Source: an uncultured Ruminobacter sp.
GTDB lineage: Bacteria > Pseudomonadota > Gammaproteobacteria > Enterobacterales > Succinivibrionaceae
Direction: 5' to 3'
Length of the DNA stretch: 64,000 bases
Assembly (NCBI GenBank): GCA_902776415.1
Contig: CACYPY010000005.1
Span: 1-64,000, forward strand
Shown here: piece by piece, positions 6,143 to 29,982 of the stretch
Layout of the letters: each line of letters opens with the position of its first letter
Position numbering within the stretch: the stretch's first letter is position 1
The notes under the pieces: model-generated
What the model was told of the DNA's origin: nothing
The model's input: the letters and a program-made list of their open reading frames with translations, nothing else
Databases searched by the model: none
Position numbers and translations under genes: made by a program

Positions 6143-7093
6143 ATGAAAATCCGCCGTATCCTGAAATACCGGATTCCTCTGGATCCCCCGCTCCTCCAGA
6201 ACGGCTTCGAAATCCGGGAGCGCCGGGGCTGTATCCTGATATCCGAATCCGGAGATCCGGGAGAATTTGCCCCGCTTCCCGGGTTTTCCCCATCCCGGGA
6301 AGCGGATATCCTCCGGGATCTCGGAATTTTCCGTTCCTGCCGGGATTCCGGGACGGATATTCCGGAGCCCGATTTAAAAACCCCCGAGGCCCGATTTGCC
6401 GCGGCCATGCTGAACACCCCCCTGAACACCCTTCCCGAAAAGCCTCCGGTACGGAGTCTTTTCGGGAATCCTGACGCAGTTTTGGCCGCACTGCCGAAAC
6501 TCCTGGACAGTATTTCCGAAGAAGCCCGGCTGTTCCCGGGAAAAATCTCCGGCATTAAAATAAAGGCCGGAATTTTCCCCGAAACCAGTGAGATTGCCCT
6601 GATCCGGGAGATCATCGGGGCGTGCGAAGCCCGTAGGCTCCGGGGACAGATCCTGATAAACCCGGACGGCAACAAAAGCCTTTCCCCCGAAACCGCCCGG
6701 CGCTATATAGCCGCCCTGGGGGGGTATCTGGGGTACTTCGAGGATCCGACGGCATCCCTGAACGACTGTCTGGGTCTCGGAGTTCCCGTCGGTTTCGACA
6801 TGCTGTGGCCGGAATTTTTCGCGAAATTCAGGGACTCTGATATCCCGGGAGAAATCCGGAAACACCGGGCGGTTCCGGTAATAAAGCCGGCGCTGACTCC
6901 AGGCTTTATGAAGCTCGGGAATCTCAGGCCGGTACTGTCCTCCGCCTTTGAAAGTCCCCCGGGCATCAGCTGGATCCGGAGACTGGCAACGTTCCTCGAT
7001 ACCGAATCGGGAACCGATACCCTGAAATACTTTCCCCCCGGAGCCCGGGAAAGCGAAACCTTTATCCGGGACTTCACGGAGGAACTGGAATGA
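6143..7093 (+). CDS. menC: o-Succinylbenzoate synthase MenC
   Basis: Enolase-superfamily dehydratase that turns SHCHC into o-succinylbenzoate. Visible elements are the K-x-K motif in GIKIKAGIF near residue 135, the first metal ligand in NPDGNKS near 173, EDP near 198, GFDMLW near 218 and the second catalytic lysine in VIKPAL near 245. The length of 316 residues matches E. coli MenC (320). It starts 12 bases after menB, and its stop overlaps the menE ATG by four bases. Confidence 0.93.
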   Translation: MKIRRILKYRIPLDPPLLQNGFEIRERRGCILISESGDPGEFAPLPGFSPSREADILRDLGIFRSCRDSGTDIPEPDLKTPEARFAAAMLNTPLNTLPEKPPVRSLFGNPDAVLAALPKLLDSISEEARLFPGKISGIKIKAGIFPETSEIALIREIIGACEARRLRGQILINPDGNKSLSPETARRYIAALGGYLGYFEDPTASLNDCLGLGVPVGFDMLWPEFFAKFRDSDIPGEIRKHRAVPVIKPALTPGFMKLGNLRPVLSSAFESPPGISWIRRLATFLDTESGTDTLKYFPPGARESETFIRDFTEELE

Positions 7094-8676
7094 ACGATGC
7101 GGACAGAATGAACGGACAGAATGGAATAGACGGGAATAACGTGATAAACGAAAAAGCCGTGTTTTCCGGGGATCTCCCAGCCCGGACTGCCGCAGCCGGG
7201 GGCATAATCTCCTTAAGAAAGCGGGCGGTGCTCACCCCGAATCTCCCGGCGCTCATCACCGCCTCCGGAATTCTGTCCTGGAGGGATCTTATGATGGAAG
7301 CAGCCCGGTTTCAGACCTTCATCCGGGAAATCCCCGAACGTACGCTCATCATGACCGCCCGGGCGGATCCGGACTATCTGGCGGCCTTTGTCGCCGCCGT
7401 GCATCTTGGCAAAATCGTGCTCCCCTGTTCTCCCCGGGAATGCCCGGTCCGGCTCAGGGAACTCTCGGAATTCGTATCGGGAAGGATTCTGGAGCCCGGA
7501 CACCTGGCGGAAATCCTGCCGCCCCGGGACATCGCCGGGGAATTTCAGGATACCGTTTCGGAATACGCTCCGGACACCCCGGTCAACTGTCTAATGAGTT
7601 CCGGATCCACCGGAAATCCGAAGCTCATTGTCCATACCCTGAAAAACCATCAAACGAGTGCCGTAAACGCCGTCTGGGCTCTTTCCCTGGAAAACGGGGA
7701 TCGCTACGCCCTGAGCCTCCCCCTTAATCATGCCGGCGGGCAGGCGGTAATTTTCCGGGCTATTCAGTCGGGATGCGCCATGACGGTTCCCGAAAAGGAG
7801 CTTGCGCTCCCGGACGGTATCGCCAGATACGGTATTACCGCCATCTCACTGGTACCGACTCAGCTGGTGCGGCTTATTGATGCCGGAAATCAGGATCCGA
7901 AAGCCGCCCGGGAAAAGCTGAGAACCCTGAAATGGATTTTGGCCGGCGGAGCGCCCCTGGCTCCGGAAACGGTGCGGGAGTTCCGGAGCCTTTATCCCGG
8001 AGTGCGCCTCCTGGTATCCTACGCCATGACCGAAACGGCCTCCCTGGCCTTTCTGGGGGAGCTCCGGGGAACTGCCGCCGACTATTCCGGCGTTCCCCTT
8101 CCGGGCTGGAACTTCCGGATTTCGAATGAGGTTACGGGAGAACAGCCGGGGACAGGGGAGGTGCTGATCCGGGGGCCGTCCCTGACTCCGGGATATCTCG
8201 GCGCCGGAGGCCACATTGTCCCCCTGCCCCTCCGGGACGGCCGGTTTGCCACCGGGGATCTGGGGACTAAAACTCCGACAGGCCTGAAAATACTGGGACG
8301 ACGGGACAATATGTTTATTTCCGGGGGAGAAAATATTGTTCCGGAAGGCATTGAACGTGAGCTTCTCCGTATCCCGGGGATCCGGGAGGCGGTCGTGGCC
8401 CCGCTGCCGGATCGGGAATGGGGGTCAGTCATTGCCGCCGTGGTGAAAACGGACTCCGAAATGCCCGGAAGTCCCCGGTCCCGGGGCAGGGAATTTTCTC
8501 CGGAAACCCGGGAATACTTCAAAAAAGAGGCGGAAAAGCTTCTGGATCGCATCCGGATCCCGAAAATCTGGCTTCCCTGGAATCCGGAATGGGATCAGGG
8601 AATGAAAATAAAGAGAACTCTGGTGGCGGAATATGTGAAGAAGTCCTGCCGGAGGAAAGAAAAAACCGGGGAATGA
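7090..8676 (+). CDS. menE: o-Succinylbenzoate-CoA ligase MenE
   Basis: ATP-dependent acyl-CoA ligase of the ANL superfamily that activates o-succinylbenzoate for MenB. The ATP-binding loop MSSGSTGNPK lies near residue 168, the adenylate motif YAMTETASL near 308, and the hinge/C-terminal segment with GDLG and GRRDNMFISGGEN around 390-415. The length of 528 residues is somewhat above E. coli (451), through a longer N-terminus and a proline- and arginine-rich insertion near residue 460. It ends the men block; sfsA is convergent downstream. Confidence 0.93.
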   Translation: MNDADRMNGQNGIDGNNVINEKAVFSGDLPARTAAAGGIISLRKRAVLTPNLPALITASGILSWRDLMMEAARFQTFIREIPERTLIMTARADPDYLAAFVAAVHLGKIVLPCSPRECPVRLRELSEFVSGRILEPGHLAEILPPRDIAGEFQDTVSEYAPDTPVNCLMSSGSTGNPKLIVHTLKNHQTSAVNAVWALSLENGDRYALSLPLNHAGGQAVIFRAIQSGCAMTVPEKELALPDGIARYGITAISLVPTQLVRLIDAGNQDPKAAREKLRTLKWILAGGAPLAPETVREFRSLYPGVRLLVSYAMTETASLAFLGELRGTAADYSGVPLPGWNFRISNEVTGEQPGTGEVLIRGPSLTPGYLGAGGHIVPLPLRDGRFATGDLGTKTPTGLKILGRRDNMFISGGENIVPEGIERELLRIPGIREAVVAPLPDREWGSVIAAVVKTDSEMPGSPRSRGREFSPETREYFKKEAEKLLDRIRIPKIWLPWNPEWDQGMKIKRTLVAEYVKKSCRRKEKTGE

Positions 8677-20651: not shown

Positions 20652-20826
20652 TTTATTCATCACCTCGGACACATTGTATGTCGTTTCGCATTTTGAAACA
20701 ATTATAAATTTTGAGAAACAACAGCAATTCTTCCGGCAGCTGTCTCTCCCTGGGAGCCCCGGAATCCGGTCGGGAGAGACCTCAGTCACCTAACTGTTGC
20801 CTGCAAGATGCCGGATAATTCCCGGA

Positions 20827-21070
20827 CCGGAAAACTCGGAAATCTTCTTGAATCCGGACTTCAGACTGTTTCAGGGATTCCGCCATGGACTTCAGCGCCG
20901 CCAGATACCACTCCCTGATGGTTGTCAGACCTTCGGAGGCTGTGGAAATCACGGCGGAAACCGCGGATCATGTACCCATGGCTCTGAAAATTGCCGGAAA
21001 AAGCATTTACGGCGTACGGTCCTTACGGAACACGGCCCTGATATTTTTAAAAATTTCATCGAACTCTGCC
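20827..21070 (+). pseudogene. Decayed fragment of pabA (3' half)
   Basis: Closely resembles 28750-29011, the 3' half of intact pabA. The copy carries a 16-nt deletion that removes the catalytic His-Pro-Glu codons and shifts frame, and its stop codon has changed from TAA to CAG. The similarity continues without a break through the pabA-nudC spacer into the next fragment, showing a single duplicated block. Confidence 0.88.
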
Positions 21071-21183
21071 AGGATATCGGAAGAACAGAGTTTTTACGGA
21101 CGGCACCCCGGATTTCCCGGGTGCTGATCCCGTCGGAATTCTGATTTCTCCGGTTCTTTACCTGATTGCAAGGTGTTTTTAAA

Positions 21184-21391
21184 ATGCGGCAGAATTAGCG
21201 GTCCCCATGTTTTCAGAAACGAATTCTCCCTGAAACGCCCGCCCCGGGCTTCTGACCGGGTAATGGCCTTCCGGGATCGGAACATTCTCGTCAGCGGGAA
21301 CGGAAAGGATATCCCGCCGGGGGGCTTCCCGAAGTCTCCTCCTTTGACGGGGAAAAGCATCTTTATCTGTTTTCCGCGGACAGCCGGGCCT
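21184..21391 (+). pseudogene. Decayed fragment of nudC (5' end)
   Basis: Matches the first ~200 bases of intact nudC (29116-29320) but has an in-frame TAG five codons after the ATG, then indels. It stops abruptly at the 8-bp motif CCGGGCCT (21384-21391), where sequence switches to a copy of the menI region. Confidence 0.88.
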
Positions 21392-21506
21392 CCATCCGGT
21401 CATCCCCGCAGGCGGAGAAGGATATTCCCAGCCCCACGGAGAGTCCCTTCTGACAGATGGAATTCAGAATCTCCGTCGAAAGCGGCTTTTTCCAGACAGC
21501 AGTCAT
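21384..21506 (-). pseudogene. Truncated copy of menI (5' end)
   Basis: Corresponds to 19129-19251, the first ~40 codons of the menI-like gene plus its GGAGGAG ribosome-binding site. It is cut by the junction with the nudC fragment, so no functional thioesterase can be made. The intergenic stretch that follows in the original (19252-19454) is also present in the copy. Confidence 0.88.
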
Positions 21507-22015: not shown

Positions 22016-23433
22016 ATGCAGATATTCGCCGATAATGTCTTTGATAACCCCGCCGAGATTATCGAGGTTTTTAGTCCTGATGATGTGAAAAAGGGAATTG
22101 ACCGGGTGGAACACCTCCGGGATGCCGGATTCCACCTTACGGGCTACATCCGGTACGACCTTTCCAAACCTGCCGGAAACGGCATGCCTCTCATATATTT
22201 CGAGGCTTTCCGCGAAATTGCCGGACATTTCCCGGAGGAGTATTCCGGATCATCCCCGAATCTCCCGAATACCGCCGGAGGTTCGGGAACCATGCCCTTC
22301 GGCTCCTTTCTCATCCCGCTCATCAGTAGAGAGGAATACTGCCGCAACATCGACTGTATCCGGGAACGCATCCGTGACGGCATAACCTACGAGGTGAACT
22401 ATACCTACCCCTCAATTCTGAAATCCAGCCTGACAGGAGAGGAGCTCTACCGGCAGCTTCTGCCCCGGCAGAAAACCCCCTATAACGCCTTTATTCAGAA
22501 CCGTCACGAAACCGTGATGTCATTTTCGCCCGAACTGTTCTTCAGACTGGACGGCCGCAAAATTCTGACCCGGCCGATGAAAGGCACCATCCGCCGCGGC
22601 AATACCCCGGAAGAGGATACCGGCAACAGAAACTTTCTCATGAACGATCCCAAAAACCGTGCGGAAAATCTGATGATTACGGATCTCCTCCGGAATGATC
22701 TTGGCATCATAGCCAAAGACGGTACCGTCAGGGCCGATCGGCTTTTTGAAATCGAGGAGCACCCCCTACCGTGTTCCAGATGACCTCGGATATTTCGGCA
22801 GAGCTCAGAGACGACGTGTCTCTCTGTGAGATTATCAGGGCGCTCCATCCCTGCGGTTCCATCACCGGAGCTCCCAAGCTGTCAACCATGAGGGTGATCG
22901 CGGAACTCGAACCCTGGAATCGGGAAATCTACTGCGGAGCCATCGGTTACCTGCACGGAAACGAAACGGTGTTTTCCGTTGCCATCAGAATCCTGCAGAA
23001 ACGGCATGACGAACAGGATTACCGTTATTATGCGGGAGGGGCCGTTACCTATGACTCCAATGCCACCGCCGAATGGGAGGAAACCCTTGCCAAGACCCGA
23101 TTTCTGGAAAGCGGATTTTCTCTTATCGAAACCGGAGCCGGGGATTGGGAGCGCCATCTGGCACGCCTCAGAAATTCGGCACGGGAACTCGGTTTTGCAT
23201 GGAATCCCGAACTTGATTCCTTTGACTTTCCCGAAGACCGGGTTTCCCGCATCGAGCTCTTCAGGGACGGTCACTTCAAAGTGACCACAAGAAAGCTTCC
23301 GGATCCTGCAATTAAACCCCGGGTCAGAATTGCCGGAAAGACAGATTCCCATAATCCCTTTCTCTATCACAAAACCACCGTAAGAAGCCCGGCTCCCCGC
23401 GATTATTTTGAGGAAATCCGCACCAACGAAAGA
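22016..23433 (+). pseudogene. pabB: Bifunctional aminodeoxychorismate synthase/lyase (PabB-PabC), 5' part; frameshifted and transposon-split
   Basis: The intact ancestor would make p-aminobenzoate for folate: PabB turns chorismate into aminodeoxychorismate and the PabC domain releases pyruvate. PabB signatures are present: YEVNYTYPS, RPMKGTIRRG, NLMITDLLRNDLG and, after the shift, GSITGAPK. Around 22763-22771 a run of five C's breaks the frame; removing two C's or adding one restores EHPTVFQMTSD. The PabC-like part starts near 23140 (WERHLARLRNSARELGF) and continues to ...IRTNER at 23433, where the IS21-like element begins. ATG 22016 follows GGAAGAAG; ATG 22001 is alternative. Confidence 0.9.
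23425..23433. repeat. Target-site duplication, left copy
   Basis: AACGAAAGA immediately before the element's TGATAAACG end; repeated at 28224-28232. Joining the two copies restores the pabBC reading frame. Confidence 0.92.
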
Positions 23434-23531
23434 TGATAAACGTCAACTAAATGCCACCCCACGACAAGCCTGTGTCATACGTGACGACAATACTTGTGCC
23501 ACCGTATATTTTCAATAGCTTTCCCGACTCC

Positions 23532-23582
23532 TATATTAAAGCGTGATGCGTGCGTTTTTGTGCGCCGTTTTTCTTTAATATA
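23532..23582 (+). promoter_or_regulatory. Inverted repeat before the istA ribosome-binding site
   Basis: TATATTAAAG at 23532-23541 and its perfect complement at 23573-23582, directly followed by AAGGAG and ATG 23593. In a read-through transcript this stem would adjoin the ribosome-binding site and could limit transposase translation. Confidence 0.55.
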
Positions 23583-23592
23583 AGGAGTTTTT

Positions 23593-25305
23593 ATGTCAAA
23601 TTTGACAAAACTTGCTGAGAACATTGTTGCTGTATGTTCCCAGCTTAATCAAGGCGTGTCTAATCGACAGGTTGCCACCAGTTTTAATATATCAAGGAAT
23701 GTAATCAATACCTTTGTCAGACAGGTTGAAGATCTCGGCATTTCCTTCGATGATGTCGTTGTCATGCCTGAAGAAGAAAGAACCCGGAAATTCTTTGCTG
23801 ATTCTGGCAAGACTGTCAATTCCAATTTCATTGAACCCGATATGCTGAAGGTTTGGGAATACCTGAATAAGCCTAATGCTTTCAACATCAGGCATAACAT
23901 TAAGTCAGCCTATACGAGGATATATTTGGCAGATAACAAAGATGCCACGCCTGATCAGTTAATGTCCTTAAGGACTTTTGAACGCAGGTTTCACGATTAC
24001 TGCAAAAGCAGTCAGCACCCGGACAACGTTAAGGAAGCCAGTTGTTGTACTCTTACCTTTTACCCCGGGCAGTGTATGGAAATTGACTATGTCGGAAATG
24101 AGCTGAAGTGGATCTCTCCGGACAAAGTAATTCGCAAGGCGAAGGTTTTTACAGCCACCCTGAAGTATTCCGGGTATCTGTATGCCAGAGCAGTTCCCGA
24201 CGGTACCACAGACAGCTGGCTGACTTCCATAGTGGAGGCCTGCAAATTCTTTGGCGGTGTACCCGAGGTAATTCGCATGGATAATGACGCCGCACTGACT
24301 GTTCATGGCAGTAAAAAGAATAATACCCGGACGGAACTGCTCTTCAAAGTCAGGAATCTTCTTGATTCTCTGGGAACTGTTGGAGATTTGGCCCCCTGTC
24401 GAAGTCCGAAATATAAGGCATCAGATGAAAGAAATAACTATTCTGTGGAAAGCTTTTTTGCAGCTCAGGAGTATGTCAATGGCGTGCCTGCCCGTGATTA
24501 TACTCATCTGAACGAACAGCTTCTTCAGGAGGTTGCAACGTTCAATATAACACCAAGACAGTCAGACGGATTAAGCCGATCCTACGTTTTTGAACAGTAT
24601 GAGAAAAAGGCTTTGAAGCCTTTGCCGGCATTTCTGCCCGGTGTTGGCGATACGGATATAATCACAGTTCCTCCCGATGGCTATGTTTATTACAAAGGGA
24701 ATCGTTATCATGCCGGCAATGAGCAGCGAAGCCTTAACATTATCCAAAAGATTGAGAATGGCCAATATATTGTATTCCTCAAGCAAGACATGAAAGAAAT
24801 TGTGCGATACAAGATCAATCCATTGTCTCAGGGCATTCGTTACAAGGATGATCGGTTTAAATCTCCGGCTGAAAAGAGTGTCACCCGAAACAGGAGTTGG
24901 TTCCTGGATTATTTCAGAACCCACAATGAATCACCGGAGGCCATCATCTCTCTGTTTAACATAATGTGGGGAAACAGAGAGGTGAATACAATTAACAGCC
25001 GTAAGTTCTCTGCCATTATTGCGCATTCAATAGCCCGTGGTGACAGTGATCTTCGGATTTTGTCCCTTGTCTGTCAGATGCTCCTGCTGTTCAAACCCAA
25101 AACACTAAGCATCACCAATCTGGATATCGAGTACAAACTCAGTGTTGGCTGGCCGGAAAAACAGGAAGCCATAAAACAATTTTTGGCAAGCATGGCAAAC
25201 AATCCTGCTTCCGGTACATCTGCAAATCTCTCCTTACCGGCAGTAAAAGAATCTCATCTCACTTCAGAAGAAATTGCCGCAGAATACAGGAGATACTTCA
25301 AATGA
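23593..25305 (+). CDS. istA: IS21-family transposase (IstA-like, DDE)
   Basis: A 570-residue DDE-type integrase/transposase. An N-terminal HTH (VSNRQVATSFNISRNVINTFVRQ, about residues 20-42) precedes the RNase H-like core: first Asp in GQCMEIDYVG near 162, second Asp in FGGVPEVIRMDND near 232 (the IS21 'GGVP..I..DN' signature), and the Glu probably in NYSVESFF near 285. A C-terminal beta-rich domain follows with VPPDGYVYYKGNRYHAGNEQ. AAGGAG precedes the ATG. Its stop overlaps the istB ATG by four bases. Composition is AT-richer than the chromosome around it. Confidence 0.9.
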   Translation: MSNLTKLAENIVAVCSQLNQGVSNRQVATSFNISRNVINTFVRQVEDLGISFDDVVVMPEEERTRKFFADSGKTVNSNFIEPDMLKVWEYLNKPNAFNIRHNIKSAYTRIYLADNKDATPDQLMSLRTFERRFHDYCKSSQHPDNVKEASCCTLTFYPGQCMEIDYVGNELKWISPDKVIRKAKVFTATLKYSGYLYARAVPDGTTDSWLTSIVEACKFFGGVPEVIRMDNDAALTVHGSKKNNTRTELLFKVRNLLDSLGTVGDLAPCRSPKYKASDERNNYSVESFFAAQEYVNGVPARDYTHLNEQLLQEVATFNITPRQSDGLSRSYVFEQYEKKALKPLPAFLPGVGDTDIITVPPDGYVYYKGNRYHAGNEQRSLNIIQKIENGQYIVFLKQDMKEIVRYKINPLSQGIRYKDDRFKSPAEKSVTRNRSWFLDYFRTHNESPEAIISLFNIMWGNREVNTINSRKFSAIIAHSIARGDSDLRILSLVCQMLLLFKPKTLSITNLDIEYKLSVGWPEKQEAIKQFLASMANNPASGTSANLSLPAVKESHLTSEEIAAEYRRYFK

Positions 25306-26204
25306 GTAAAAAAAACATATCTGCTGCGATCGAGGATATTCTGGACAGAATTGGAGAACCTGCCACTTCTGTTCCCTCCTCGGCAGATGATCTTGGCATG
25401 ATCCCGGCAAACGCTGAAACCATTCAGGAGTTCAGCAAAAGGTTCCGGGCAATGAGAATGTCGACAGTTGCCGCAATGCTTCAGGCTCTTCATGAAAAGG
25501 GACTTATTGGAAAAATCTCCAACATGAATCTTCTGGATATGATTCTGAAAAGCTGTGAGGCATCCCGCAGGAATAACAAAGCCAAAAGGCTTCTTATAAA
25601 AAGCGGTCTCAGAAGTTCTGCTGATGTTTCCGATATCAGGAAGCGTCTGATGGGGTATCAGATCAGCGAATCAGAGTATGAGTCTCTTATTGGCATGGAT
25701 TGGATCAGGGGTGGTGGTCTTCTGATTACGGGGGTGTCCGGCTGCGGCAAAACGGACTTCGCCAGTGCATTATGCCAATATGCCTGTCTGAACGGATTGT
25801 CCGTCCTGGTTATGGATTATTGCATGTTTATCAACCAGGGGCTGGCGTTTAAATGCAGTAACTTCCAAGAATATCAGACATACCTGAAAAATATTGCTGG
25901 TCACAATCTGGTAATGCTGGATGACTGTTTCCTGTCAGCGCTTCAGAATGACGAGCCATGGTGTCTGAAGAGTCTGCTTGATGAATTGGCGGATCATAAG
26001 CATGGTCTCATTCTGATCTCTCAGAAAACAATGCCCCGAATGGTGGAATGCTTTGCAAAATCCGAAGCCGGTATTACCGTAATTGACAGGTTCTCTGACA
26101 GTACCAAGTTCATGCAGATCAAGCTTAAAGGAAAATCATTCCGCATGAATGCCGGCGGCATAAAAATACTGGGAGGGAATGATGAAGCCCAACAGGACAA
26201 ATGA
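25302..26204 (+). CDS. istB: IstB-like ATPase, transposition helper
   Basis: A 300-residue AAA+ ATPase of the IstB/DnaC type that assembles on DNA and stimulates IstA. Walker A is GVSGCGKTDFA near residue 145, Walker B is NLVMLDDCF near 205 and a sensor motif lies in HGLILISQK near 230. The N-terminal ~100 residues contain FRAMRMSTVAAMLQALHEKG, similar to the IstB start. Length is slightly above usual (about 250-270). It overlaps istA upstream and the small Cys-rich gene downstream. Confidence 0.9.
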   Translation: MSKKNISAAIEDILDRIGEPATSVPSSADDLGMIPANAETIQEFSKRFRAMRMSTVAAMLQALHEKGLIGKISNMNLLDMILKSCEASRRNNKAKRLLIKSGLRSSADVSDIRKRLMGYQISESEYESLIGMDWIRGGGLLITGVSGCGKTDFASALCQYACLNGLSVLVMDYCMFINQGLAFKCSNFQEYQTYLKNIAGHNLVMLDDCFLSALQNDEPWCLKSLLDELADHKHGLILISQKTMPRMVECFAKSEAGITVIDRFSDSTKFMQIKLKGKSFRMNAGGIKILGGNDEAQQDK

Positions 26205-26424
26205 GAAAGTCGCAGCAAAATCGTTATGGCCAATGATTTGCTGCGTTTGCAAGCTATCAGAAAATGATTCTGACTCTGCCAATGATAGTGGAAATCAGCT
26301 GACTCCTCAAATCATTAGTAACCGAGCCTGTCAGTTTTGCCTCCAACTTCACTCGCATGGAAGCATATTGATTAAAAAGGGATGCGGCAGTATCAGTATC
26401 GGGGATAGCCATCATGCCTGCTAA
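26179..26424 (+). CDS. Small Cys-rich protein in the IS21-like operon
   Basis: An 81-residue frame overlapping the 3' end of istB by 26 bases and the next gene by 11, with GGGAGGGA directly before tandem ATGs at 26179 and 26182. It contains CCVC and CQFC about 35 residues apart, a spacing compatible with a zinc ribbon. The overlap on both sides and the good ribosome-binding site argue that it is translated; function unknown and no family recognised. Confidence 0.55.
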   Translation: MMKPNRTNEKVAAKSLWPMICCVCKLSENDSDSANDSGNQLTPQIISNRACQFCLQLHSHGSILIKKGCGSISIGDSHHAC

Positions 26425-26992
26425 GAAGACGAAAAACATTACCCCTGAACAGTTTCAGAAAGCTCTCAGGGAAATTGAGGAAAGTCATCCCGGACGCAAG
26501 GCTACCTACAGGGAACTTCATGAAAAACTATCCTGCTCAAATTCCACCATTAAAAAGTTGATGGAAACGGTGAAGGCTTCTCACGGCTTGATCAACTCCT
26601 ATCCCGTGGAACAGACTGAACAGGCTTGCAAGGTGTTTACAGCCAATCTTACGAGCATGATCGCCAATGTTTGTCAGAATATTGAAGAGAAGGCAAATAC
26701 AAGGATTCTGGAATCAGAGAAAATCTGGCATGAGTCCATCTCCAAATGCAATCAGCAAATCTCCGAAAATCAACAGGTAATCAGTAAACAAAAGCTTGAT
26801 ATCAGAACTCTGAGCAAGCAAGTGTCTGAATACCAGATGATGTATCAGAAGATTGAGGTGATGGAAAAGCAAATCTCTGAACTTCTGGAAGCTAATACTC
26901 GTATGGAACAGCTGATGACAGGCATTCTCAGGACTGTAAAGAATACCGGCAGCACCTCAGGATCGAAAGACTCCAATCAGGTTGCCGGATAA
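26414..26992 (+). CDS. KfrA-like DNA-binding coiled-coil protein
   Basis: A 192-residue protein. Residues 9-60 (PEQFQKALREIEES...YRELHEKLSCSNSTIKKLM) resemble the KfrA N-terminal winged-helix domain, with the 'T..ELH..L..S..TI...L' pattern. From about residue 85 to 175 it is a long Glu/Gln/Lys/Ile helix with heptad spacing, i.e. coiled coil. KfrA proteins of plasmids bind palindromic operator arrays and help plasmid maintenance. Here the gene is followed at once by a palindrome array, so it is the obvious candidate to bind it; that link is inference. Not a known part of IS21 elements. Confidence 0.7.
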   Translation: MPAKKTKNITPEQFQKALREIEESHPGRKATYRELHEKLSCSNSTIKKLMETVKASHGLINSYPVEQTEQACKVFTANLTSMIANVCQNIEEKANTRILESEKIWHESISKCNQQISENQQVISKQKLDIRTLSKQVSEYQMMYQKIEVMEKQISELLEANTRMEQLMTGILRTVKNTGSTSGSKDSNQVAG

Positions 26993-27024
26993 CATCTTGC
27001 TACAGGTATGACAGATGCTATAGT

Positions 27025-27050
27025 TAAGCCGGAATCATTCCGGCTTTTTT
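27025..27050 (+). terminator. Intrinsic terminator of the IS21-like operon
   Basis: AGCCGGAAT-C-ATTCCGGCT at 27027-27045, running into TTTTTT, 35 bases after the KfrA-like gene. Confidence 0.88.
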
Positions 27051-27153
27051 GGAATACAAAACACACACACCGTTTAAAAGACTGTCTATACTTTATACTG
27101 AAAAGACAGTGAATATTAAAAGATGCGTTCATAATCACCAGATTCAGGAAAAT

Positions 27154-27943
27154 GAGTAGCACGCTACTCAATACAATGAAGGCCTTATTATATAAGACTT
27201 AGAAGGTGTGTAACACCTGTAAATTCCGTTCCGTTTTGAAGAAAAAACAAAAAAATGAGTAGCATGCTACTCGTTTTGAGTAGCACCGTTTAAACCTTGT
27301 ATATCAAGCCTTAGCAGTCATTTTTAACAGTCGGTATAAGTAGCATTGTGTCAGTGCTACTCAAATGCTACGGTAACATTGCAAAGTGCCTTAACATAAG
27401 GGTTAAACAGTGTTTTTTTACCCTTATGAGTAGCGTTTGCTACTCTACTCCACGTTACTCAAATGCTACTCTGTTTTAAAGAAAAAACTCACTCTACCCC
27501 TTGTTTTATAAAGGCTGAATGGCGCTACTCATACATACCGACAGGCAGTTTAATACAAAAGTCTTATAAAGACTTATGTCATAAGTGGTGAAAGCACTAC
27601 TTCCCCTCCTGAAACACTACGGTAGCGCTACCGTAGCATTGCCAAAATGCTACTCAAATGCTACTCGTTATTAACGATAAAAAACACTCAATTCCTTATT
27701 TTATAAGGCTTTAGGCACTACCAAAATGCTACCGTAGCGTTACTCAGTTTAAAAGAAAAACATGTCTCAGGCCTGATCCCATAATACCTCAGGTGCTCCT
27801 CACAGAGCATAAAAATCGCTGTTCCTTTTTAATAAAAAAAACAAGATCAAACCCTGATAATATAAGGATTTGAATGTTATTTGATCCTAATACGGAAGAA
27901 TCTCAAATGCTACTCTGGCGCTACTCATAATGCTACTCATAAA
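27154..27943. repeat. Array of GAGTAGC/GCTACTC palindromes in the element's noncoding part
   Basis: About 800 bp holds many copies of GCTACTC or GAGTAGC, often as facing pairs: 27154-27169 (2-bp gap), 27257-27272 (perfect 16-bp palindrome), 27428-27445 (4-bp gap), plus a related perfect 20-bp palindrome CTACGGTAGCGCTACCGTAG at 27617-27636 and direct runs of ATGCTACTC near 27648, 27658 and 27906-27936. Interspersed are AT-rich motifs of the type CCTT..TTATAAGG (near 27182, 27500, 27694, 27855) and A-rich tracts (AAAGAAAAAA), suggesting decayed units of roughly 100 bp. No open frame explains them. Confidence 0.85.
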
Positions 27944-28223
27944 TCCTCATAAGCGATGAAAAAAAATTGTCAGAAGATCTCCTTTTGAAAAGAACTTCAG
28001 AATGAAAATAAAATGAACGATATTGAAGAGAAGGGGAAATGTTTATAAAATCAGGGACGATGGGGGTTGGGAAAGAAAAATTTGAAAAGCAGCAATGTTT
28101 TTAGGCTGTGAGGTTAAGCCTCCTGAAAACGGGGATACATTGGCACAAAAAGCTGTCGTGACTGGAACAAGTAGTAATGGCAAAAAGTTTGTCGTCAGTG
28201 GGTGGCATAGCTGTCGTTTATCA

Positions 28224-28460
28224 AACGAAAGAAATGAAATCACCGAGGGAACCTTTACCAATGTGGCCGTCAGGACAGGAGACCGGATATTCACGCCTCC
28301 CGTATCCGCCGGACTTCTTAACGGAATCATGCGCCAGAAGCTCATAGAAGAGGGAGTGTTGCAGGAAAGAACCCTGTACCCCCGGGATCTGAAAAATGCC
28401 GACGCGGTATACTGTCTCAATTCCGTACGGGGAATGTTCGAGGTGGAACTATGCTTCTGA
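28224..28460 (+). pseudogene. pabC: pabBC 3' part (PabC-like domain end)
   Basis: Continues the split gene after the element: NERNEITEGTFTNVAVR, then TPPVSAGLLNGIMRQKLIEEG and the family end VYCLNSVRGMFEVEL, the PLP-enzyme fold-class IV signature of aminodeoxychorismate lyase. The first nine bases are the right target-site duplication (28224-28232). Its last ten bases overlap the pabA start. No start codon or ribosome-binding site of its own is evident, so it is probably not expressed as a protein. Confidence 0.9.
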
Positions 28461-29011
28461 TTGACAACTATGACTCCTTTACCTACAACATTGTCCAGTA
28501 TCTCAGAATGCTCGGAGTCTCTCCTCTGGTCATTAAGAATGATGAGCTCACCCCGGAACAGGTCAAGAAGCTGGATTTTGACAGAATCATCATCTCTCCG
28601 GGCTGGGGTTCCCCGGAAAACTCCGGAATCAGCATGGACGTAATCGCCTGTTATCAGGACAGGAAGCCCATCCTCGGCATCTGTCTCGGAATGCAGTGCA
28701 TCGCCCGGTACTTCGGGGCGGAAATTGTCCGGGCCCCCTGTCCCTGCCACGGGAAAAACTCGGACATCTTCTTCAGACCGGACTTCAGGCTTTTTCAGGG
28801 ATTCCGCCAGGGCTTCGGCGCCACCAGATACCACTCCCTGATGGTTGCCAGACCTCCGGAGGCTGTGGAAATCACGGCGGAAACCGCGGATCATATTCCC
28901 ATGGCCCTGAAAATCTCCGGGAAACGCATCTACGGCGTGCAGTTCCATCCGGAAGCCGTCCTTACGGAACACGGCCTTGATATTTTTAAAAATTTCATCG
29001 AACTCTGCTAA
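28451..29011 (+). CDS. pabA: Aminodeoxychorismate synthase amidotransferase subunit PabA
   Basis: Class I glutamine amidotransferase that feeds ammonia to PabB (or to anthranilate synthase if shared). The 186-residue protein opens MLLIDNYDSFTYNIVQYL, has the oxyanion strand SPGWGSPENSG near residue 45, the catalytic Cys in GICLGMQ near 79 and the His/Glu of the triad in GVQFHPEAVLTEHG near 165. It is intact although its partner gene upstream is destroyed, so it either serves another synthase or is awaiting decay. It overlaps the pabBC stop by ten bases. Confidence 0.92.
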   Translation: MLLIDNYDSFTYNIVQYLRMLGVSPLVIKNDELTPEQVKKLDFDRIIISPGWGSPENSGISMDVIACYQDRKPILGICLGMQCIARYFGAEIVRAPCPCHGKNSDIFFRPDFRLFQGFRQGFGATRYHSLMVARPPEAVEITAETADHIPMALKISGKRIYGVQFHPEAVLTEHGLDIFKNFIELC

Positions 29012-29115
29012 GATATCGGAAGAACAGAGTTTTTACGGACGGCCCCGGATTTGCCGGGTGCTGATCCCGTCGGAATTCTGATTTCTCCGTTTTTTCCCTG
29101 ATTACGAGGTGTTAA

Positions 29116-29982
29116 ATGCTGCAGGATATCGGTCCCCACGTTTTCAGAAACGAATTCTCCCTGAAACGCCCGCCCCGGGCTTCAGACTGGGTAATGGCCT
29201 TCCGTGACCGGAACATCCTTGTCAGCGGGAACGGAAAGGATGTCCCGCTGAGGCTTCCCGAAGTCTCTTCATTTGACAAGGGGAAGCTTCTGTACCTTTT
29301 TTCCGCGGACAGCCGGGCCTGTTATCTTTATACCGGGGATCCGGATGCGCTAGGTATCCCGGGTTTCTCCTGGCAGAGCACTGTGACGCTCCGTTCCGAA
29401 AACCCCCGGCTTATCTGCTTTGCCGGCTTCACAGCCTGGCACCTCCACAGCTGGTACATCACTAACCGGTTCTGCGGAAAATGCGGTGCCGAAACCGCGC
29501 ATTCCGAAAACGAAAGAGCTCTCTTCTGCCCCCGCTGCGGGAATATAATATACCCCCGCATCGCCCCGGCGGTTATCGTCGGCATTACCGACGGAGACAG
29601 ACTTCTGATTACCCGTTACCGGGATCGGCCGTACCGGGGACCTGCTCTGATTGCCGGCTTCTGCGAAATCGGAGAAACCCCGGAACAGACGGCCTCCCGG
29701 GAAGCCATGGAGGAGGTCGGTATCCGAATCAGGGATTTAACCTATGCGGGGTCCCAGCCCTGGGGACTGGACGGCAATCTGCTCATGGGCTTTATGGCCA
29801 AAGCTGACGGCAACACCAGGATCATCCGCGACGAAAACGAGCTCGCCGAAGCTGTCTGGCTTTCCCGGGAGGAGATTCCGGAACCGGATACCGTAATCTC
29901 CCTTACCAGAACCATGATAAGCAACTTTAAAAGGCACGGCTTCAATTTCGGGAACGGGAACGGCATTACAGGCGGAAATTAA
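29116..29982 (+). CDS. nudC: NAD(H) pyrophosphatase / deNADding hydrolase NudC
   Basis: Nudix hydrolase that cleaves NADH and removes NAD caps from RNA. The 288-residue protein has a zinc ribbon, CGKCGAET...FCPRCGN, around residues 120-145, then the Nudix box GFCEIGETPEQTASREAMEEVGI around 180-202 (pattern GX5EX7REUXEEXGU) and the NudC-specific SQPWGLDGNLLMGF after it. AGGTGTT precedes the ATG. It follows pabA by about 100 bases and may share its transcript. Confidence 0.93.
   Translation: MLQDIGPHVFRNEFSLKRPPRASDWVMAFRDRNILVSGNGKDVPLRLPEVSSFDKGKLLYLFSADSRACYLYTGDPDALGIPGFSWQSTVTLRSENPRLICFAGFTAWHLHSWYITNRFCGKCGAETAHSENERALFCPRCGNIIYPRIAPAVIVGITDGDRLLITRYRDRPYRGPALIAGFCEIGETPEQTASREAMEEVGIRIRDLTYAGSQPWGLDGNLLMGFMAKADGNTRIIRDENELAEAVWLSREEIPEPDTVISLTRTMISNFKRHGFNFGNGNGITGGN

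Follow-up and report, generated by a model that had tools for sequence, protein, structure and literature searches.

The question raised by this locus is what some 800 bp of repetitive DNA is doing inside a transposon. In the 790 bp from 27154 to 27943, the heptamer GAGTAGC or its complement GCTACTC occurs 15 times, where 500 dinucleotide shuffles average 0.1 and never exceed 2; the other 63 kb of the window (the whole 64-kb stretch of DNA that was analysed) holds four further copies that are not clustered. The shorter core GTAGC/GCTAC is found 22 times where 2.0 would be expected. The original prediction had described saturation with one heptamer in direct and inverted order and proposed a count against shuffled sequence; that count bears it out, and the 16-mer and 20-mer palindromes that it named are both exact (Table 1). 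Half-sites either face each other in 7-2-7 dyads centred on AY or follow one another in direct pairs at 11-12 bp, and this same-strand distance, which is frequent (27356/27367, 27649/27660, 27909/27920/27932), equals one helical turn. The units of ~100 bp that had been proposed are real but loose, with copies of a 27-nt unit spaced at 101, 98, 195, 79 and 181 bp, and they are decayed. AT-rich CCTT..AAGG motifs exist as well, but only three copies of the 31-nt family were found, and they are given less weight. The GC content of the region is 36-37%, compared with 53% for the window. It lies wholly within the element and contains no plausible ORF, as expected of the noncoding DNA first described. 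The exclusion of a CRISPR array also holds: the spacing is irregular, both orientations occur and there is no cas-like ORF in the element.

Table 1. Positions of the element, its genes and its repeated sites in the window
Feature	Position	Strand	Remarks
Complete IS21-like element, 4,790 bp	23434..28223	+	Terminal inverted repeats, 9-bp target duplication, intact genes
Target-site duplication AACGAAAGA, 9 bp, left copy	23425..23433	.	Matches right copy
Target-site duplication AACGAAAGA, right copy	28224..28232	.	Matches left copy
Left end, repeated transposase-type boxes (TGCCACC, CGACAA)	23434..23503	+	Common to right end, inverted order
istA, DDE transposase, 570 aa	23593..25305	+	Pfam rve 2.9e-8 (over cut-off)
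istB, AAA+ helper ATPase, 300 aa	25302..26204	+	Pfam IstB_IS21 1.1e-16
Small ORF (orf81), 81 aa	26179..26424	+	Overlaps both neighbours
KfrA-like protein, 192 aa	26414..26992	+	Winged helix (residues 11-61) and coiled coil (65-179)
Array, 15 heptamers (22 GTAGC cores)	27154..27938	.	Proposed KfrA-like binding array
Dyad GAGTAGC-AC-GCTACTC	27154..27169	.	
Dyad GAGTAGC-AT-GCTACTC, GAGTAGCATGCTACTC	27257..27272	.	Perfect 16-bp palindrome
CTACGGTAGCGCTACCGTAG	27617..27636	.	Perfect 20-bp palindrome, variant half-site GGTAGC
Right end, repeated transposase-type boxes (TTGTCGTC, GGGTGGCA)	28095..28223	-	Unlike array word

The terminal inverted repeats of the surrounding element read TGATAAACG..CA.CTA..TGCCACCC, and its ends, TGATAAACG...CGTTTATCA, are placed at 23434 and 28223. 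Its operon encodes IstA, IstB, the small ORF and the KfrA-like protein. An IstA homologue, an adjacent IstB and inverted repeats with internal repeats and a target duplication place it in the IS21 family, which it resembles in having a DDE transposase and an AAA+ helper in one operon and several boxes per end. IstB scores 61.5 bits against a cut-off of 24.1 for IstB_IS21 and 1.2e-23 for NCBIfam IS21_help_AAA; IstA matches NCBIfam transpos_IS21 at 2.2e-38, which is below the equivalog cut-off. Compared with the known IS21 family, the element has a KfrA-like third gene, an extra noncoding array and a divergent transposase (about 23-34% identical to its nearest relatives, where these can be aligned over a useful length), and its 9-bp target duplication is longer than the 4-8 bp of the family. 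The boxes common to both ends, TGCCACC and CGACAA, are expected to be the transposase sites, and they have no word in common with GAGTAGC. The insertion is clean and interrupts a pabBC fusion gene in its aminotransferase half; joining the flanks without the element restores the reading frame, ...RTNER/NEITEG... across the junction. A decayed duplicate of the pabA/NUDIX region at 28451-29300 is present at 20800-21500, on the opposite side of pabBC.

One copy of the element is known. In the host genome, a 3.04-Mb draft that is ~85% complete, there is no second copy of the array, no GAGTAGC dyad elsewhere and nothing closely related to the array or to any of the three proteins, except for a 33-bp piece of one end. 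Close relatives were also absent from viral contigs, those of IstA from genome contigs and those of KfrA from plasmids, and the phage and plasmid matches considered as such proved to be ordinary IS21 transposases of <30% identity. The solitary 33-bp piece is an exact copy of the right end on contig C57 of the same genome (2842-2874; L033 1500-1534), flanked by CATGAGC direct repeats and downstream of a gene that, named by eye, is methionyl-tRNA synthetase-like; it may be the trace of another insertion or of an abortive event.

The KfrA-like gene had been placed directly upstream of the array, and it does end 161 bp before it, overlapping orf81 at its other side. The encoded protein reaches 20.2 bits (E 0.001) against Pfam KfrA_N, below the 26.1-bit cut-off, while hhalign with KfrA_N proteins from the same position in relatives gives E 2e-5 and a probability of 77. 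A single-sequence AlphaFold model (pLDDT 84) has a winged helix followed by a 115-residue helix; the latter, at residues 65-179, is single and has a pLDDT of about 97 over most of its length, pointing to a long C-terminal coiled coil. Foldseek matches to winged helices in the PDB are weak (E above 0.2). The protein is labelled KfrA-like rather than KfrA.

KfrA homologues have been described on plasmids and in some phages. KfrA of RA3 binds an operator of five 9-bp repeats in mixed orientation, KfrA of R751 also binds iterated motifs, and KfrA proteins oligomerise and form filaments on DNA that carries their cognate sites (PMC7783346). The locus resembles the KfrA-OK system of RA3 (IncU) and the KfrA systems of R751 and pPOP15.9 in its combination of a winged helix with a coiled coil, encoded beside short iterated sites of mixed orientation (PMC7783346). 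However, the RA3 operator, part of a plasmid stability module, comprises five 9-bp repeats at the promoter of kfrA, whereas here 22 cores extend over ~800 bp, downstream of the gene and in a transposon without partition genes, and the 192-aa protein is far smaller than its counterpart of about 350 aa. Of the kinds of protein-binding array first suggested, the KfrA-linked one is well supported by the kfrA-adjacent arrays in relatives and by the binding of RA3 KfrA to such iterons (PMC7783346). A parS-type centromere or replication iteron found no support, since the element is a transposon in which istA, istB, orf81 and the KfrA-like gene are the only genes, without a replication or partition gene.

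Relatives were sought in 57 genomes of the host's bacterial family. At least twelve other divergent IS21-like elements in that family have a KfrA_N gene after istB, either directly or with one small ORF between. Pfam KfrA_N matches in twelve relatives lie between 3e-12 and 1e-5 in nine and between 2e-4 and 4e-3 in three, and several of the proteins pass the cut-off. The carriers are G012 (six copies), G031 (three copies) with a related copy in G046, G014/G015, G017 (two kinds), G018, G019, G022 (two kinds), G043, G045 and G049. In a sample of 395 genomes from the host's order, strong IstA matches came from the host's family alone. An istA relic, 54% identical over residues 1-113, is present in the same genus (G028:C5, L047 ~6790-7900), where it breaks off beside a genuine-looking CRISPR array with a repeat of about GTTTCAATACCGCTAAAGGGTTGGCCCCTTTGCGGC.

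None of these relatives has a GAGTAGC array, and each element has a word of its own: GAGTAGC, AAAGRAC, AAGTGTAAC, AACTGTAAC, ATGGTAGC, AAAGATAAC, GGGTACC, TGGTAAA and others, with different words in different genera. Three elements whose half-sites are unrelated share the AY-centred 7-2-7 dyad. In G012, kfrA is preceded, ~20 bp from its start, by a perfect palindrome, AAAAGAGCATGCTCTTTT, and followed just past the stop by three AAAGRRCATGTTCTTT-type palindromes with half-sites; TGTACA palindromes flank kfrA on both sides in G031. Directly before kfrA in G017:C11 are five AAAGATAAC half-sites, three in one direction and two in the other, which match the RA3 operator in count and orientation (PMC7783346). 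In G018 the 3' end of istB holds nine boxes of the GGGTACCG type. In G022:C37 kfrA is followed by CCGGTCACGTG in an 11-bp tandem and preceded by a matching stretch of 19 bp, and in G049 TGGTAAA boxes precede kfrA. In five further elements (G014, G043, G022:C9, G019 and G017:C149) the boxes lie at the kfrA frame or inside its first ~250 bp, where they encode low-complexity N-terminal extensions. The KfrA_N domain starts at residues 48-123 in these five, and mostly at residues 7-21 where the array is extragenic, as it does in the window element, G012, G031, G017:C11 and G022:C37. Judging from these starts, the array behaves as a conserved DNA feature that would have been overprinted by coding in some lineages.

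The pairing of kfrA with an array is also apparent from a blind scan, in which the best 8-mer with at most one mismatch was sought on both strands in 120-bp windows, excluding 130 bp at each end. The densest repeated-word cluster adjoins kfrA in 11 of 12 complete elements, that of the window included (P 6.6e-8). Windows counted as near kfrA make up 13-33% of each element, and as this definition was fixed after a first inspection, the P values amount to strong support but not to an independent test. When windows of 150 bp are used, 11 of 13 elements have a near-kfrA maximum above that of all istA/istB windows (Wilcoxon P 0.002), although the best windows of G017:C11 and G049 in that run may be end repeats. 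The words found blindly have a common 4-6-base core beyond what is seen in repeated words from istA/istB of these elements (P 0.007, 0.003 and <0.004; P was 0.075 in an earlier version of the test that used different windows). G022:C37 does not pass the blind scan, its repeats having been seen by eye, and no cluster was found in G045, where the contig is incomplete. The longest word common to both kfrA flanks is significant for G031 and G022:C37 only, and plain near-palindrome counts are weak by themselves. A 21-bp repeat 3' of kfrA at a further locus (L138) was considered as an array and rejected, as the sequence is coding.

The kfrA-adjacent clusters of relatives, the common core of their words and the RA3 operator together argue that the array is most likely a binding array for the element's own KfrA-like protein. 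The fuller statement, that it consists of cognate sites and that the protein is a conserved third component of an IS21-like clade, appears probable. From what is observed (the array, the gene order, the arrays beside kfrA in relatives, the common word core and the dyad geometry), we infer that the protein would bind, oligomerise and function on the array. It is unlikely that the array instead represents internal sites for IstA or a transpositional enhancer, for which the internal repeats of Mu and Tn7 ends provide a model. It does adjoin the right end, and an element-end word, AGAAGATC, recurs every 24 bp inside the G017:C11 element, 3' of kfrA; however, the boxes at the ends of the window element are of a different kind, and the clusters in relatives adjoin kfrA on either side or sit within it rather than at the ends. 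The repeats in question (L133, 3985-4190) are seven 24-bp tandem units, separate from the AAAGATAAC boxes upstream of kfrA. As a second, downstream array using the end word, they suggest that some arrays may be transposase sites.

A host-factor operator or centromere, or junk palindromes in a decayed passenger region, would be unrelated to the KfrA-like protein, and the single known copy, the low GC content and the decayed units are compatible with such an origin. It is nevertheless improbable, given the cluster beside kfrA in nearly all complete elements, the lack of clustering of the heptamer elsewhere in the window and of the dyad elsewhere in the genome, and the different words used in different genera. 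Still less can be said for a structured noncoding RNA locus or a string of terminators insulating the element. The folding z is about -8, and two palindromes are followed by T-runs on the minus strand, but both strands show the same excess stability, which is what DNA palindromes would give, there is no Rfam match at the gathering score, direct half-sites at 11-12 bp form no hairpins and the arrays of some relatives lie inside coding sequence. Least credible is guidance of target choice, with the protein bridging the array to the same word at targets. KfrA proteins do oligomerise and form filaments on cognate-site DNA (PMC7783346), but exact boxes are missing for several kb around the window insertion and from the flanks, of roughly 1 kb, of five G012 copies. 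The suggestion that the heptamer might occur at preferred target sites thus failed at the insertions examined, and guidance is unlikely because of these empty flanks.

If the array is a KfrA-like binding array, the clade would have three components, the IstA transposase, the IstB ATPase and a KfrA-like architectural DNA-binding protein. Dimers of the last would recognise half-sites of 7-8 bp, whether these form an AY-centred 7-2-7 dyad or follow each other directly at 9-13 bp, and a larger nucleoprotein would arise as the coiled coil joins the dimers. Since the array of most relatives overlies the 5' part of kfrA, it probably serves there mainly to repress kfrA, perhaps the operon too. In the window element the array would have expanded to ~800 bp and shifted to the 3' side of kfrA, beside the right end. 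Its role in transposition may be autoregulation or formation of a right-end nucleoprotein. Simple autorepression does not explain it, since it lies between kfrA and the right end, solely downstream, and no GAGTAGC boxes occur upstream of the window kfrA or istA. We favour a large, compact KfrA nucleoprotein, probably assembled on the array, that would damp expression of the element or organise its right end for transposition.

A KfrA-like gene paired with an array across divergent relatives suggests that this transposon family has a control part not previously described. A bolder proposal, which we consider a reasonable possibility a little short of probable, is that the clade uses a filament-forming KfrA-type protein and a co-evolving, element-specific array as a dedicated third transposition component. 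It would be an architectural or copy-control module of a sort not described for DDE/AAA+ transposons. Array and protein would then switch specificity together, leaving each element to regulate itself alone. IS21 is the model for control of a transposase by an AAA+ ATPase, and only two proteins have been considered so far; the accessible parts of the literature searched contained no paper linking KfrA to IS21 transposition, and the structural papers on IS21 found there concern IstA and IstB. If the proposal is true, a sequence-specific coiled-coil protein as third partner, with an array of sites of its own, would add a layer of control, and many matched protein/site pairs from elements in a poorly studied bacterial family would be available for studying how KfrA reads DNA. 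A close analogy among transposons is Tn4651 (TnpS/TnpT with the rst site), which likewise has a DNA-binding helper protein and an array of sites for it. TnpT is a putative homologue of KfrA. Unlike Tn4651, the window element has no recombinase.

At three loci (L137, L138 and L139), a KfrA_N gene comes after a different kind of pair, again of a DDE transposase and an AAA ATPase. The transposase in L138, the one tested, is IS481-like, and no box array was seen at the kfrA genes of the three. At least two types of DDE/AAA transposon thus have KfrA_N as a third gene. Apart from these, a tandem pair of KfrA_N matches occurs at G000:C17 29098-29807 and in similar places in at least seven relatives, and is perhaps a chromosomal pair.
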